Below, piece by piece: positions 10,976 to 21,919 of a stretch of 22,997 nt of DNA. The stretch's first letter is position 1. Every line of letters begins with the position of its first letter. The notes beneath the pieces were generated by a model that saw only the letters and a list, made by a program, of their open reading frames with translations, was not told the origin of the DNA and searched no databases. Both the position numbers and the translations under genes were made by a program. This stretch comes from a virus, in the IMG/VR virus record IMGVR_UViG_3300047362_000042, positions 1 to 22,997 of that record, one strand, 5' to 3'.

Positions 10976-11233
10976 ATGTCATATGATAAAATCGTAGAGC
11001 AACTGCGATCGGATGTTCTTGAGGTAACATTCACGAAGGTAAATGGTGAGACACGCACTATGCCGTGCACTCTTCTGACTTCGTTTATGCCATCTTATAC
11101 ACCATCTGAGGCGACCGACATTGATCAGCATTCTGTCAACAAGACAGTGATCCGTGCGTTCGCAATCGACAAACAAGCGTGGCGGTCGTTTCGTGTAGAC
11201 AACGTCACTAATATTGAGGTACTGAATGGTTGA
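10976..11233 (+). CDS. WYL_2-like (Sm-like SH3 barrel) small protein
   Basis: The start at 10976 follows TAAGGAGATCGAT; the longer frame from 10883 is inside the upstream gene. The 85-residue product reads LRSDVLEVTFTKVNGETRTM, CTLLTSFMP, then VIRAFAIDKQAWRSFRVDNV. This is the layout of the WYL_2 (DUF2693) family of T4-like phages: a V-x-FTK-x-(D/N)G-x-x-RTM-x-x-TL start and a D-x-x-x-x-WRSFR ending. The fold is a small SH3/Sm-like barrel, of unproven function, perhaps RNA or protein binding. It overlaps gp33 by 8 bases. Confidence 0.75.
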   Translation: MSYDKIVEQLRSDVLEVTFTKVNGETRTMPCTLLTSFMPSYTPSEATDIDQHSVNKTVIRAFAIDKQAWRSFRVDNVTNIEVLNG

Positions 11234-11471
11234 AGGTAACGAGAATCCAGAAGAGAACTTCCTAACAAAGAAGTCGTTCTCTCAGATGATCGAGACCTTC
11301 GTCTATCAGAACCGTATGTCCTATATGGATAGCATTGTTCACCTATGCGAGAAAAATGGTCTGGAACTGGAGGATATCAAAAAATATCTGACACCGACCA
11401 TCGTCGAACATCTGGAGAATGAGGCGCGTCAACTGAACTTTCTGCCTAAGCAGAATTCGCTGGACGTATAA
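11226..11471 (+). CDS. 33: gp33-like late transcription co-activator
   Basis: The 81-residue protein lies directly before gp32, where gene 33 sits in T4. Its core, FLTKKSFSQMIETFVYQNRM followed by YMDSIVHLCEKNGLELEDIK and LENEARQLNFLP, has the shape of the short gp33 of cyanophages: helices with a YM-(D/E)-x-(I/V) and L-x-x-EA-x-x-LN-(F/Y)LP pattern. In T4, gp33 binds the RNA polymerase beta flap and links it to the gp45 clamp, activating late promoters recognised by gp55. This fits the many TATAAATA boxes here. gp59, which neighbours gp33 in T4, is absent. Its final GTA TAA forms part of the next late promoter. Confidence 0.75.
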   Translation: MVEGNENPEENFLTKKSFSQMIETFVYQNRMSYMDSIVHLCEKNGLELEDIKKYLTPTIVEHLENEARQLNFLPKQNSLDV

Positions 11472-11474
11472 ATA
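11467..11474 (+). promoter_or_regulatory. T4-type late promoter box
   Basis: Exact TATAAATA, preceded by G, overlapping the gp33 stop (11469-11471) and 62 bases before the gp32 ATG. The A/T-rich leader (11495-11535) includes AAGGTAAT as ribosome site. Confidence 0.8.
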
Positions 11475-15617: not shown

Positions 15618-16391
15618 TTAAATAATTCCACCTAGATTGAGGTTTACATCTCCCCCAATCAGGTCCGTTAGACCGCGTTTGTCTTCCTTCACCTTCCATC
15701 TGGTGTAAGATAATTGCACGGTCAATTCAACAACGGTTCCCGTATCACTCATAAACTCAACACCGCTTATGCTAGTTGGGAACGCATCTTCTAACTCCAC
15801 TGTGTATATAGACAAACCACCAATATCGAAATTGATGTCTAGTGGACCTATGTCAAATCCTGCTCGCATCTGTGGTTTGGACAGTTGCGAGATTGTAACT
15901 GGATGCGTGATCTGACTCTGATAGGCGACAGACTCATATCCTTTCTCGCCCTCATTCACGACCTTGGACATCCAATTGTCGAAATACTTCTTTACCTCAT
16001 AATCGTTCAATACGTAGAACGTCAGTGACACGTCACCCACCGCATATCCGTTCGCGACCTTTCGCATCTCCATACCTACTTGACGGTCCAAAGACATGAT
16101 CTGTTTTTCTGGTAGTGATGCACTCTTACACAATAGGTTCAAGGTCTCTGGATCATCTCCAGACATACTTGGTAGATTGATGTTCTCTGCAACTGCCTTG
16201 ACGGTGTCTATCGCCTTGTCTAAAAACGACCCATCATCTGCTGTCGCTTTCTTCGCCGGTGACTCCTTCTTGACACCACCCGCCTTCGCGTTAATGGACT
16301 TTACCGACGGCATCATTACCGCGAACTGGTTGTTGAAAGCCATCCCGTTACGAAGACTGACCTTTGATTTAAATGTCTCTATACCTGCCAT
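15618..16391 (-). CDS. 54: Tail tube-fold baseplate protein (gp54-like tail tube initiator)
   Basis: The 257-residue protein belongs to the gp19/gp48/gp54 tail-tube fold. After an N-terminal strand (NNQFAVMMPSV) and a basic, Ala-rich insert (about 35-75), it has LLCKSASLPEKQIMSLDRQV, a stretch with GDVSLTFYVLNDYEVKKYFD, WMSKV and YQSQITHP, and the C-terminal IYTVELEDAFPTSISGVEF followed by VVELTVQLSYTRWKV. This order is that of tube subunits (PF06841). In T4, gp54 sits on gp48 and starts tube polymerisation; its place among baseplate hub genes suggests gp54 rather than the main tube protein gp19, which is shorter. Starts directly before the upstream gene's end with GCGAATAAATGGC spacing, so translation is coupled. 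Confidence 0.68.
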   Translation of the reverse strand: MAGIETFKSKVSLRNGMAFNNQFAVMMPSVKSINAKAGGVKKESPAKKATADDGSFLDKAIDTVKAVAENINLPSMSGDDPETLNLLCKSASLPEKQIMSLDRQVGMEMRKVANGYAVGDVSLTFYVLNDYEVKKYFDNWMSKVVNEGEKGYESVAYQSQITHPVTISQLSKPQMRAGFDIGPLDINFDIGGLSIYTVELEDAFPTSISGVEFMSDTGTVVELTVQLSYTRWKVKEDKRGLTDLIGGDVNLNLGGII

Positions 16392-16991
16392 TTATTCGCC
16401 TATCATACTTTTTGCATCGGAGTAGACTTTTTGGTTACTCGCGTATCGGAAATCTGCCGTCGGTAGAAATGTTGCGATCTCCCACTCAGGGGCGGGAACC
16501 ATCGCGAATCTACCGTCAACGTGTTTGTTTAGATAGTGTTTAAAACACGGTCTGAAGTGTTTAAGTTTTGCGGTCTTGGTCAATAGTTGATAAGACGCCT
16601 TAAAACGAGTTGTCTTATCAAACTTTGTGTTGTTAGTGATGTCCATCAATGAGTCCAACATCTTTGCACGTAATACCGGAGGTAAGTAGTGCAGGTTCAA
16701 CCCATAGAATCCGTCCTTCGCTGGACCCACCACAATCACAAGTGGGAACGCATCGTAGTAGGGCAGTTTTCTTCGATCGTTTTTAAACTTGGGATCGTAA
16801 AAGAACATATACATGCCACCCACGACCTCTTGTCCAGTCTTCTTGAGTGGATCCTCATCCATCAAGTCCTCGCGTTTAATACTACGCATGTTCTTGATTT
16901 TGTTTTGAAACCATCTGCGGGATTCCTTGGTACGGGGTGTGATACCTGCACGGAATGCCTGCAACTCTAAGTTCTGGAATATTTTAGACAT
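16392..16991 (-). CDS. Conserved T4-like late protein (YDAFPLVIVV...GLNLHYLPP family)
   Basis: The 199-residue protein shows a pattern I recognise from many T4-like phages: FYDPKFKNDRRKLPYYDAFP, then LVIVVGPAKDGFYGLNLHYL, PP-x-LRAKMLDSL, a lysine-rich FRPCFKHYLNKHVDGRF, and PAPEWEIATFLPTADF. It is usually annotated as a virion or DNA-end/structural protein without firm role; a link to gp2 (DNA end protector) is a weak possibility because gp4 is its neighbour. The basic N-terminus may bind DNA. It is the first gene after the late box at 17020-17027, with AAAGG before the ATG, and is likely made late. Confidence 0.72.
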   Translation of the reverse strand: MSKIFQNLELQAFRAGITPRTKESRRWFQNKIKNMRSIKREDLMDEDPLKKTGQEVVGGMYMFFYDPKFKNDRRKLPYYDAFPLVIVVGPAKDGFYGLNLHYLPPVLRAKMLDSLMDITNNTKFDKTTRFKASYQLLTKTAKLKHFRPCFKHYLNKHVDGRFAMVPAPEWEIATFLPTADFRYASNQKVYSDAKSMIGE

Positions 16992-17019
16992 AAGACCTTT
17001 GTCCTAAAACCTTTCTCTC

Positions 17020-17027
17020 TATTTATA
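17020..17027 (-). promoter_or_regulatory. T4-type late promoter box
   Basis: TATTTATA (+) reads TATAAATA (-), preceded by G and overlapping the gp4 stop codon (17025-17023). The ATG at 16991 follows 28 bases later with AAAGG between. Confidence 0.78.
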
Positions 17028-17541
17028 CACGTTTTTTACGTTTCTTGAACGCGGGCATCTTTTTGAGAGGTTTCTTAGACTTTATGCGTTGCGCAGCCTT
17101 GGGCATGATACCCTTTGTGGTGAGTTCTTTCTCTGTCCAGATCTCAAAGTGGTGTCCGCGATCTTTTGCGTACTCGACCGCCGCCTTCCACTTGGATTGG
17201 TTCTTGATGTAGGTGAGACCCTCAGTCATGAGTGTCTGTCGAGACTTACCTTGTTTCTTCTCTGGTCTCTTGGTCTCTTTGGCGGGTTTGACCTCAACCA
17301 ACACCACACGACCCGACTTGTACTTGATCACAAAGTCGACGAAGTATCGGTGAGGTTTCTTGTCGGTCTCGCAGATGTAGGGTATTACCAACTCCTCAGA
17401 GACCCACTGGACCACATCTGAGTTCCTGTCACACCACATCATCACATACTTCTCCCACCCTGAACGGTAGACAATATCATCGACGTTGCCTGCGTACTTC
17501 TGCGGTTTGGTGGGTTTGTACTTTCCCTTATACGTTTTCAT
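17023..17541 (-). CDS. 4: gp4-like head completion nuclease
   Basis: The 172-residue basic protein begins MKTYKGKYKPTKPQKYAGNV, then YRSGWEKYVMMWCDRNSDVV and a restriction-enzyme-like core: WVSEELVIPYICETDKKPHR followed by YFVDFVIKYKSGRVVLVEVKP (Glu in SEE, Asp in YFVDF, and E-x-K in VEVKP, the PD-(D/E)xK arrangement). The C-terminus is very Lys-rich. This is the T4 gp4/50 head-completion family, with a TnsA-like nuclease fold; it acts on DNA-filled heads before tail joining. The start overlaps the methyltransferase end by 14 bases, and the last codons GTA TAA contribute to the next late promoter. Confidence 0.85.
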   Translation of the reverse strand: MKTYKGKYKPTKPQKYAGNVDDIVYRSGWEKYVMMWCDRNSDVVQWVSEELVIPYICETDKKPHRYFVDFVIKYKSGRVVLVEVKPAKETKRPEKKQGKSRQTLMTEGLTYIKNQSKWKAAVEYAKDRGHHFEIWTEKELTTKGIMPKAAQRIKSKKPLKKMPAFKKRKKRV

Positions 17542-18112
17542 AACGTCTCAATAGTACCATACAGTTAAGGCGGTCAGTGGAAGGGTAGTAGAACTCTCGC
17601 ACCTTGCGGTATGGGAAGTCGTCTCGATCCAGTTGGTTGTCGATGACCGCCTTGGGGTATAGGTCACCCATACATCGGACGTAGTCGTCCACCAACATCC
17701 ACTCGACACCCGACTCAGCGCATAGGTCCATGTCCTGAACCATTCCCTTGGGTGTATGGTCCCCATCAATGAAAATCATATCATAACCAGTTACGTCGTC
17801 AGGTACCAACTGGTGTGAGTCGCATAGGGTGAACTGGAATCGATCCTTAAACTGGTCCTTTATCTTCCCAGCATTGACCTCTGTGTGTGGGTAGTGTCCA
17901 ATATCTGTTGAGTGCACTCTTACACGACGATTGACGGATAGGAATGTGTACGCACTGTGACCAAAGTTGAACCCAATCTCGAAGACGGTATTTGCCTGTG
18001 TCATAGATAATATACTCGCAAACGCCAGACACGTCTTATTATCAGGCAGAACGTGACCCTCAATGGTGTCCCATCCCTCAGTCAGGAATTTAGTGTCGTC
18101 TATTAAGTTCAT
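17528..18112 (-). CDS. Class I SAM-dependent methyltransferase
   Basis: The 194-residue protein has the Rossmann methyltransferase order: FEIGFNFGHSAYTFLSVN (motif I, ExGxxxGxS, about 44-61), VHSTDIGHYPH (acidic end of strand 2, about 66-76), YDMIFIDGDHTPKGMVQDMD (motif IV with IDGDH, about 109-128) and WMLVDDYV (strand 5). This is the Methyltransf_24 kind, acting on small molecules, sugars or proteins; target unknown. It is the first gene of the - strand late operon, before gp4. The leader from the late box at 18140 has no visible Shine-Dalgarno sequence, so translation may be weak or leader-independent. Overlaps gp4 by 14 bases. Confidence 0.82.
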   Translation of the reverse strand: MNLIDDTKFLTEGWDTIEGHVLPDNKTCLAFASILSMTQANTVFEIGFNFGHSAYTFLSVNRRVRVHSTDIGHYPHTEVNAGKIKDQFKDRFQFTLCDSHQLVPDDVTGYDMIFIDGDHTPKGMVQDMDLCAESGVEWMLVDDYVRCMGDLYPKAVIDNQLDRDDFPYRKVREFYYPSTDRLNCMVLLRRYENV

Positions 18113-18122
18113 CGATTTTGTG

Positions 18123-18130
18123 TATAAATA
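18123..18130 (+). promoter_or_regulatory. T4-type late promoter box (right-going)
   Basis: Exact TATAAATA preceded by G, 36 bases before the annotated gp48 ATG. With T4 spacing RNA would start near 18136. Confidence 0.8.
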
Positions 18131-18139
18131 GTGTAACGA

Positions 18140-18147
18140 TATTTATA
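18140..18147 (-). promoter_or_regulatory. T4-type late promoter box (left-going)
   Basis: TATTTATA (+) reads TATAAATA (-), 27 bases before the methyltransferase ATG at 18112. Expected RNA start near 18134, overlapping the right-going start. Confidence 0.75.
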
Positions 18148-18166
18148 GAACCGCGAGTCCACTCAT

Positions 18167-19066
18167 ATGGTAACAGAAGAAACTAAGAAAGACGGAGCAC
18201 TTATGTATCCGTTGCGTCAAGATAGGTGTAATACTTGGGTCACCTTTGGTGTCAAGACGGTAGTTACCCCAGAAGAACAGGGTAAACAGGTCTCTGAAAC
18301 AAGTTCTGAAAACAACCAGTCTAACACGAAAACCGAAGTTACTAAAAAAATGAAACTATATCTCCCTGCGGGGTTTGCTGTTTCGGACTCTTTACAGTAC
18401 ACTAACGTAGACATCGGTATGTCTGGTGCGGCCGCAATGAAAGGTATGGGCGCAGCTGCCTCTGGTGAAGGAAGTGCAATCATGGGTGTTGTAGGTGCAT
18501 TTGCTGGGGGTCTCAAGGACGGACTGTCGTCAATCGGAGATCTTTTTCAAACGGGTCAGATGGACGCACTTGCGAAACTATCTGTTGCACGTGGTATCAA
18601 TGCCACCAAAGACCTAATGAGTGACGAAGTCAAACTTGGTTCTCAACTCGCACTACAGGTTGCACTGAACCCTAACTCTCGCGCCATGTTCAAGGGAGTG
18701 AATCTACGATCGTTCTCTTTTGCGTTCACGTTCGTCCCAACATCACCCGAAGAAGCAGAAATGGTCGAACAGATCATCTACCGATTCCGATGGCACGCTT
18801 ATCCCAAACCAATCAACTTGGGTAGCACTGGTATCACCGGAGGTTTCGAGTATCCGCACCTATTCTCTATCGAACTTAAACACGAAGAGTCAAACCAGAC
18901 TGTGGGGACAAAAATCAAGGACTGTTACCTTGAGTCGGTTGCGACTGGATATAACCCATCGTCCATGGCATACCATGCAGACGGTCGTCCAGTAGAGTAT
19001 AATATGACTCTTAATTTCCGTGAAACTATTGCACTCACCCAAACAGATATTGAGCAGGGTTACTAA
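18167..19066 (+). CDS. 48: gp48 baseplate tail tube cap
   Basis: The 299-residue protein has an N-terminal strand region (YPLRQDRCNTWVTFGVKTVV), a Thr/Glu-rich linker, LYLPAGFAVSDSLQYTNVDI, a long Gly/Ala-rich segment (about 85-140), and the conserved C-terminal tube domain: LNPNSRAMFKGVNLRSFSFA, FVPTSPEEAEMVEQIIYRFR, YPHLFSIEL and a final YHADGRPVEYNMTLNFRET. That order is the gp48 family, which caps the baseplate and starts the tube. The ATG at 18167 has only a weak ribosome site; the ATG at 18203 (12 residues shorter) has GGAG with 5-base spacing and may be the true start. It begins the right-going baseplate operon. Confidence 0.85.
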   Translation: MVTEETKKDGALMYPLRQDRCNTWVTFGVKTVVTPEEQGKQVSETSSENNQSNTKTEVTKKMKLYLPAGFAVSDSLQYTNVDIGMSGAAAMKGMGAAASGEGSAIMGVVGAFAGGLKDGLSSIGDLFQTGQMDALAKLSVARGINATKDLMSDEVKLGSQLALQVALNPNSRAMFKGVNLRSFSFAFTFVPTSPEEAEMVEQIIYRFRWHAYPKPINLGSTGITGGFEYPHLFSIELKHEESNQTVGTKIKDCYLESVATGYNPSSMAYHADGRPVEYNMTLNFRETIALTQTDIEQGY

Positions 19067-19833
19067 TGTACTTTCAAAATATTCCAAAAACTTCGTATCG
19101 ATTCGGTGATCTGAACGATGAGGCAATGATATCCAACCTAACCGCATACAGTGAGGTGTTGGATACTATAAAGGGTAACGCGGCATTCTATCAGGACTAC
19201 TATATCCAACACGACGAACGTCCAGACCATGTCTCATACAAACTCTATAAGAACCCCCAGTTACATTGGACGATTTACCTATTAAACCCTAAGTTGCGTG
19301 AGAACGGTTGGCCACTGTCCGATCTGGAGGTTCTAGAGAAGGTTAAGAAACAGTACCCAGACACTACACTTAACACCGACGAAGATATCTCACAGACATT
19401 TCATGTGGGTCAAGTAGTCACTGGACAAATGTCTGGTGCTTCTGGTGTTGTAGTACGCAGAAACCTAGACCTTGGACAGATCGTCGTGAACGTCGATTCC
19501 TCGTTGCCTGCGTTCCGTACAGACGGTGAACGTATCACCTCAGTTGTGGGTGAGACACTACAGGCAATCGATATTGTGTCCAGTGAGGACGAACACCAAT
19601 CCCTACGTCACTACGTAGAAGATGTGGAGTATGCAGTAGACGAAGATAAGTCGTTATCTGAACGTCACGTGATCACCTCGCGTCTTGATCTACCAGAAGG
19701 TCTGTCTCTTGCAGAGGTCTCCCATTACGATCATTATGTCGCAGAGAACAACTCCCTTAAACAGATCCGTATCGTAAGACCGGGCAACATTCGTGAAATT
19801 GTCAGTGCATTCATCGCCGCAGTAGGTTCGTAA
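19066..19833 (+). CDS. 53: gp53 baseplate wedge
   Basis: The 255-residue protein has the gp53 start MYFQNIPKTSYRFGDLNDEA with DLNDE and a following helix, then IKGNAAFYQDYYIQHDERPD, HVSYKLYKNPQLHWTIYLLN (the W-x-IYL-x-N stretch, about 66-75) and WPLSDLEV. These define gp53, which joins baseplate wedges around the hub in T4. The middle part (about 110-170) has a HVGQVVTGQMSGASGVVVRR barrel-like domain, and the C-terminal IRIVRPGNIREIVSAFI matches the family's end. T4 gp53 has 196 residues, so this is longer by the inserted domain. TAATG overlaps at both ends. Confidence 0.88.
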   Translation: MYFQNIPKTSYRFGDLNDEAMISNLTAYSEVLDTIKGNAAFYQDYYIQHDERPDHVSYKLYKNPQLHWTIYLLNPKLRENGWPLSDLEVLEKVKKQYPDTTLNTDEDISQTFHVGQVVTGQMSGASGVVVRRNLDLGQIVVNVDSSLPAFRTDGERITSVVGETLQAIDIVSSEDEHQSLRHYVEDVEYAVDEDKSLSERHVITSRLDLPEGLSLAEVSHYDHYVAENNSLKQIRIVRPGNIREIVSAFIAAVGS

Positions 19834-21146: not shown

Positions 21147-21916
21147 TACCAAAACAATTCATTGAATACTATGGAGACCAAACACGCTGGTTCCTAGGTA
21201 CAGTTGTCAATAATGCAGATGATCCTCTCCAGATAGGACGTGTTCGAGTACGAATTTTTGGAGTACATGACGGCGTAGAGAAAGATGAAGATCTACCGTG
21301 GGCACAAATAGTGATTCCAACCATCTATGGAGTACACGAAGGTACAGGACAGTATCTGGGTATGTTAACGGGTACTAACGTATTCGGGATGTTTCTGGAT
21401 GGACCTAGTTCGCAACTCCCGCTCGTGGTAGGTACGATTCCAAAGAAAGGCGATGAAAATCAACGTGCTACAGAGAACTATCCGTATAATAAGGTCTACC
21501 AAACAGAGAACGGACACTTCAAAGAGTATGATGATACCAGTGAGAATCTCCGTATACGAGAACAACATGCTTCTGGTACATACACAGAGATGCAACATGA
21601 TGGCAGTCGTGAGACCGTGGTGGAGAAAGACGAGTATATACGCGTTAAGGGTGATTTAAAGATCGTAGGTGATCTCGATGCAACTATAGAGATATCGGGT
21701 AATTGTAAGGTCGTGATCGGTGGTGACGCGACGATAGAGGTTGCAGGCAGTACTCTCCTAGACTGTCCATCCACGACCGTCACAGGGGATCTGAGAGTCG
21801 ATGGTGAGGTCTCTGTGGGAGGCGATGTGAACACTGACGCGGGAATCTCTCTGAATAAACACAAGCATAAGATCCTCAGTGGTTCCTCTAAGGGGACTTC
21901 GGACAAACCTGTATAA
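21143..21916 (+). CDS. 5: gp5-like baseplate spike, no lysozyme domain
   Basis: The 257-residue protein starts with the OB domain typical of gp5/VgrG: FLGTVVNNADDPLQIGRVRV and RIFGVHD (about 17-42), followed by LPWAQIVIPT and PSSQLPLVVGTIP. A short YPYNKVYQTENGHFKEYDDT segment links to the triple beta-helix needle (about 160-235, with repeated GDLKIVGDLDATIEI, GGDATIEVAGSTLL, GDLRVDGEVSVGGD), and the end is LNKHKHKILSGSSKGTSDKP. T4 gp5 has 575 residues including a lysozyme domain between OB and needle; here it is missing, as in cyanophages. It forms the trimeric membrane-puncturing tip. Its final GTA TAA is part of the late box at 21912. Confidence 0.88.
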   Translation: MIPKQFIEYYGDQTRWFLGTVVNNADDPLQIGRVRVRIFGVHDGVEKDEDLPWAQIVIPTIYGVHEGTGQYLGMLTGTNVFGMFLDGPSSQLPLVVGTIPKKGDENQRATENYPYNKVYQTENGHFKEYDDTSENLRIREQHASGTYTEMQHDGSRETVVEKDEYIRVKGDLKIVGDLDATIEISGNCKVVIGGDATIEVAGSTLLDCPSTTVTGDLRVDGEVSVGGDVNTDAGISLNKHKHKILSGSSKGTSDKPV

Positions 21917-21919
21917 ATA
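21912..21919 (+). promoter_or_regulatory. T4-type late promoter box
   Basis: Exact TATAAATA preceded by G, overlapping the gp5 stop (21914-21916), 19 bases before the gp25 ATG, with GGAGG between. Confidence 0.8.

Follow-up and report, generated by a model that had tools for sequence, protein, structure and literature searches.

The window analysed here, a 22,997-nt stretch of viral DNA (IMG/VR record IMGVR_UViG_3300047362_000042), carries between two divergent operons a 25-bp element that is in all likelihood a compact bidirectional late promoter made of two nested gp55-type promoters. In the mechanism we propose, two T4-type (gp55-recognised) promoters would lie face to face, so that each transcript would run through the box of the other promoter within its first bases, and late RNA polymerase would bind in either of two orientations, melting the same AT-rich core. 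A start at 18136 would lead rightward into the gp48-gp53-gp5 baseplate operon and a start at 18134 leftward into the methyltransferase-gp4-gp2 operon. The two complexes would be mutually exclusive on one DNA copy, and both operons would be made late in infection by repeated firing on many genome copies. Nesting would fit two leaders of ordinary length into 54 bp with no antisense overlap.

The element and its flanking operons

The box TATAAATA is found on the plus strand at 18123-18130 and its reverse complement, TATTTATA, at 18140-18147, with the 9-bp spacer gtgtaacga between them. The inverted repeat stops at the box ends, and there is a G on both outer flanks. An earlier note on this DNA had described a perfect 8-base inverted repeat with a 9-base spacer, formed by opposed boxes between divergent late operons; direct reading and a motif scan confirm the repeat at 18123-18147, and the ORF positions and gene assignments agree with the arrangement. 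The features are the following, the boxes being predicted promoters.

11226-11471, plus strand: gp33-like late transcription coactivator gene (phrog_254, E 2.6e-22)
16392-16991, minus strand: gp2-like DNA end protector (phrog_429, E 5.5e-49)
17020-17027, minus strand: further late-type box in the left operon, upstream of gp2 (motif scan; counterpart box in phage C48C1 at 117057-117064)
17023-17541, minus strand: gp4 head closure protein (phrog_218, E 4.5e-56)
17528-18112, minus strand: methyltransferase-like gene, first of the left operon (PF13578, E 6.8e-10; no PHROG match)
18113-18166, no strand: 54-bp divergent intergenic gap containing the element (ORF calls)
18123-18130, plus strand: putative right-going late promoter box TATAAATA, with predicted start 18136 and a 31-nt leader to the ATG at 18167
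18131-18139, no strand: 9-bp spacer gtgtaacga, putative shared melting zone with both predicted starts, invariant in 17 near relatives
18140-18147, minus strand: putative left-going late promoter box, TATAAATA on the minus strand, with predicted start 18134 and a 22-nt leader to the ATG at 18112
18167-19066, plus strand: gp48 baseplate tail tube cap, first gene of the right operon (phrog_230, E 2e-42)
19066-19833, plus strand: gp53-like baseplate wedge subunit (phrog_232, E 2.9e-24)
21912-21919, plus strand: further late-type box in the right operon, upstream of a gp25-like gene (motif scan)

The left operon runs from the methyltransferase-like gene through gp4, gp2 and a tail tube protein to a baseplate hub protein, and the right operon from gp48 through gp53 and a tail protein to gp5 and gp25. 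Both boxes of the element match perfectly the 8-bp consensus TATAAATA of T4-type late promoters, a class that has no -35 element, and they stand just upstream of structural genes, with gp48 and gp53 on the right and the methyltransferase, followed by gp4 and gp2, on the left. Two late transcription genes expected of such a phage are also found: the gp33-like gene lies in the window itself, and gp55-like genes are present in the relatives G001 (97 kb) and C48C1, though not in the window fragment. The motif scan found exact TATAAATA seven times in the window where 0.62 would be expected. Of 3000 dinucleotide-shuffled versions of the window, only 1 contained a face-to-face pair with a gap of 0-30 bp and none contained the 9-bp form, so the pair is not a product of chance.

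Some further observations concern the neighbourhood of the boxes. The methyltransferase-like gene (PF13578) separates the promoter from gp4 in the window, and there is no such gene in C48C1 or in contigs L436-L440. Judged by eye, a purine-rich ribosome-binding site is not obvious before either ATG in 18113-18166; the leader of T4 gene 53 has AGGAGG. Another late-type box, at 11467-11474, stands immediately before the gp32 gene and overlaps the gp33-like gene at its 3' end; it would put a replication gene under late transcription.

Predicted starts

In T4 the late promoter box spans -13 to -6 (PMC1524935), and by this rule starts are predicted at 18136 (plus strand) and 18134 (minus strand). 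These are two base pairs apart, with the RNAs running back to back and one base pair between them. The earlier note had placed the starts near the same positions and had each transcript crossing the opposite box, and both claims follow from the T4 rule and the geometry of 18123-18147. Its statement that the starts overlap needs narrowing: the boxes and the melted regions would overlap, but the predicted transcripts, rightward from 18136 and leftward from 18134, would not. The proposal that one polymerase would block the other fits starts this close, at which two open complexes should not coexist. It is the non-template strand of the -10-like box, once melted, that gp55 reads (PMC7892883), so two polymerases could not both open a core where no more than a few bases part each box from the start served by the other; we firmly infer that they would exclude each other at the element. 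For spacers of up to 10 bp the predicted RNAs do not overlap, and for longer spacers the overlap is (spacer - 10) nt, as a consequence of the geometry.

The base at the predicted +1 of right-going boxes was A in 32 of the 42 distinct boxes surveyed, as it is in the window. This enrichment (p ~1e-5 against an assumed background of 43%, relatedness ignored) is as would be expected for a start site. For left-going boxes the set is smaller and the signal weaker, with A in 8 and G in 4 of 18. Most members of the 9-bp class have A at both predicted starts on the RNA-like strand: of 8 members, 7 have A at spacer position 6 and 6 have T at position 4.

Conservation of the element

Within the near family of the window the identical 25-mer is found in 17 of 17 loci, with 25 of 25 bases invariant. 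In the methyltransferase genes of the same 17 relatives there are as many as 80 differences in 582 bases, with variation at 40 of 57 four-fold sites over the whole set. In five of the near relatives (L010, L013, L019, L021 and L022) the adjoining gp48 is a different allele, 41-47% identical to that of the window. Alignment of these relatives gives a block of 88-92% identity reaching from about 16309-16354 to 18149-18157, which takes in part of the left operon as far as the promoter and outside which the nearest matching segments are only 66-76% identical. The right edge of the block coincides with the right edge of the element, which suggests that the promoter travels with the left genes and plugs into different right operons. 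The promoter looks as if it were a module boundary for the exchange of gp48 alleles (window 16309-18157). Since a recombined block ends at the element, its invariance in the near family may partly reflect recent exchange, and this invariance alone is only moderate proof of constraint.

Two boxes with exactly 9 bp between them are kept in the more distant relatives L024/L025 (spacer gtatgacag, adjoining protein 50% identical), C48C1 (spacer gtttaatcg) and L436-L440. The 9-bp spacer marks one supported clade of the gp4 tree, which left out L024/L025: the window, C48C1 and L434-L440 group together (support 99/89), and the spacers of the sister lineage are 23-26 bp long. Beyond this clade, the junction of T4 genes 4 and 53 holds TATAAATAgataataTATTTATA, a face-to-face pair with a 7-bp spacer. 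Among Straboviridae, the junction of gene 4 with gene 53 (or 48) shows the face-to-face arrangement in 23 of 25 contigs, the spacer being 6, 7 or 10 bp long; in the remaining two, L420 and L421, the boxes overlap. The spacer is 11 bp in Acj61 and 10 bp in kv_tblp5, and the cyanophages ACG-2014a, S-RIM2, B23 and ACG-2014d have face-to-face boxes 16-18 bp apart. At marine gp4 junctions where both boxes were detected, 50 of 59 are face to face with spacers of 2-27 bp (mean 16) and in the other 9 the boxes either overlap or stand back to back. Related contigs are among those counted, so that the events are not independent. About 20 further junctions showed one box or none, and D486, CC2 and HTVC008M are back to back when read by eye with relaxed boxes. 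From this minority it follows that nesting is not essential.

Two of the less common arrangements deserve mention. In L420, L421 and L479 the boxes overlap as TATTTATAAATA, with predicted starts 23 bp apart, like one common spacing of shared -10 promoters in E. coli. One gp4 lineage (L465, L471, L472, L476, L484 and L485) has back-to-back boxes, of which the one for gp4 is 5 nt away from the ATG. The predicted start there is thus the A of the ATG, and on this sequence arrangement the gp4 mRNA of the lineage is possibly leaderless.

When whole records were searched with 7-base core boxes, the pair at the gp4 junction was the only face-to-face pair in G001, in the complete C48C1 genome and in cyanophage ACG-2014d. 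The T4 record has four such pairs, one of them at gene 4 / 53, and four other records have none; a back-to-back pair occurred once, in T4. A second nested face-to-face pair of T4 (L422; NC_000866 around 112021-112042) lies in the divergent gap between inh and segE and reads TATAAATA, 6 bp, TATTTATT. The exact boxes of C48C1 point 22 one way and 3 the other, and the 3 include one at the element and one shortly downstream in the gp4 operon, which makes the element the place where late transcription would turn round in C48C1.

Why the boxes interleave

The spacing of the boxes obeys a simple identity, which we checked: the spacer equals the left leader plus the right leader minus the gap. Our spacing statistics come from gp4 junctions and make no use of scans over all viral contigs, which took in more than T4-like phages. 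From box to ATG the median is 31 bp on one side and 36 bp on the other, the gap has a median of 51.5 bp (about 52), and without interleaving the boxes would need about 83.5 bp. As the leaders exceed the gap, the boxes must interleave and nesting is geometrically needed. Compact packing is thus enough to account for the interlock, and regulation need not be invoked. When leaders were permuted to ask whether spacer or leader length is under constraint, there was a faint sign of lower spacer variation than expected (0.025 with right leaders permuted), which is unreliable owing to one outlier locus and unequal relatedness and is given no weight here.

This bears on the last claim of the earlier note, that the element is a compact switch sharing polymerase between the two operons. 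A true regulatory switch would mean that the overlap was selected for competition between the operons, firing in one direction determining how much head-completion protein is made relative to baseplate protein. A distance of two base pairs between the starts, which makes simultaneous open complexes impossible on geometric grounds, would suit such a device, as would the 9-bp spacing held in one clade and the competition and lower noise shown by strongly activated two-way promoters of E. coli (PMC12825309). We nevertheless consider a switch improbable and do not uphold the claim, because homologous junctions have spacers of anything from 2 to 27 bp, the boxes of some lineages are back to back, two boxes of full consensus give no built-in bias, and packing alone accounts for the nesting. 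The further late boxes in both operons (17020-17027 and 21912-21919) would also blunt its effect. An unsystematic look at the sequence of the element revealed no operator and no feature that might bias or toggle direction. In E. coli, basal firing of two-way promoters in one direction has no effect on the other, and competition sets in only on strong activation (PMC12825309). By analogy, whether exclusion matters may depend on the firing rate at T4-type late promoters.

Two other readings would do away with the pair of promoters. It seems very improbable to us that only one box is an active promoter and the other a chance or relict AT-rich match: some catalogued T4 late boxes have no demonstrated activity in vivo (PMC2988020) and only one side gives a clear +1 signal, but distant gp4 lineages have retained the two boxes together, each correctly spaced from its own gene. 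An RNA hairpin or a symmetric protein operator in place of two promoters is barely credible. The 8-base arms are perfect and the isolated 25-mer can fold (-2.2 kcal/mol), but the plus strand in its context folds no better than shuffles (z 0.20), and we reject the hairpin on this ground. The arms also drift uncompensated in relatives, with AATAAATA facing TATTTATA and CATAAATA facing TATTTAGG, each within the tolerance of a late box, and an operator of fixed geometry is rejected on the variable length of the spacer.

Comparison with known systems

Among the closest known counterparts of the proposed two-way late promoter is the gene 4 / gene 53 junction of T4 itself (NC_000866 77349-77371), which belongs to the gp55/gp33/gp45 system and has the same exact TATAAATA boxes, face to face, at a homologous divergence of gene 4 and baseplate genes. 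The T4 spacer is the 7-bp gataata and its right gene is gene 53, whereas the window has 9 bp, gp48 on the right and a methyltransferase gene before gp4. Our literature searches, which missed much older T4 work, found no description of the nested pair at the gene 4 junction and no mapped 5' ends there. The parts are textbook T4 late promoters; what we did not find described is their nested geometry at a single homologous junction in phages ranging from T4 to uncultured marine ones.

In vitro work on T4 has established that the direction of late activation depends on which strand is nicked, through the orientation of the clamp (PMC2988020). This makes a two-way late promoter a natural place for testing clamp polarity in infected cells, and the element is available in laboratory T4 as two identical boxes that would compete for one polymerase. 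If the in vitro rule holds in infected cells, the direction of the element should depend on clamp orientation. By extension, the nested promoter might be an ancient feature shared by T4-like phages, in which the orientation of the arriving replication clamp picks the firing direction and couples the balance of the operons to replication strand polarity, but we regard this as speculative and rather unlikely.

The cyanophages (Kyanoviridae: ACG-2014a/d, S-RIM2 and B23) share the motif class and the face-to-face arrangement at the gp4 junction. They differ in their longer spacers of 16-18 bp and their weaker boxes, CATAAATA and TATTTAGG, and the RNA 5' ends would overlap there but not in the window. 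In E. coli, bidirectional promoters with symmetric -10 elements (Warman et al., PMC12825309) are likewise single short sequences that fire both ways. They share the bases of the -10 element, have diverging starts 10, 18 or 23 bp apart and depend on host sigma factors (PMC12825309), whereas in the window two separate gp55-class boxes flank the predicted starts and no -10 is shared. Only L420, L421 and L479, with their overlapped boxes, resemble the shared-box form of E. coli. The element of the window would work like an E. coli bidirectional promoter, but with a different geometry.
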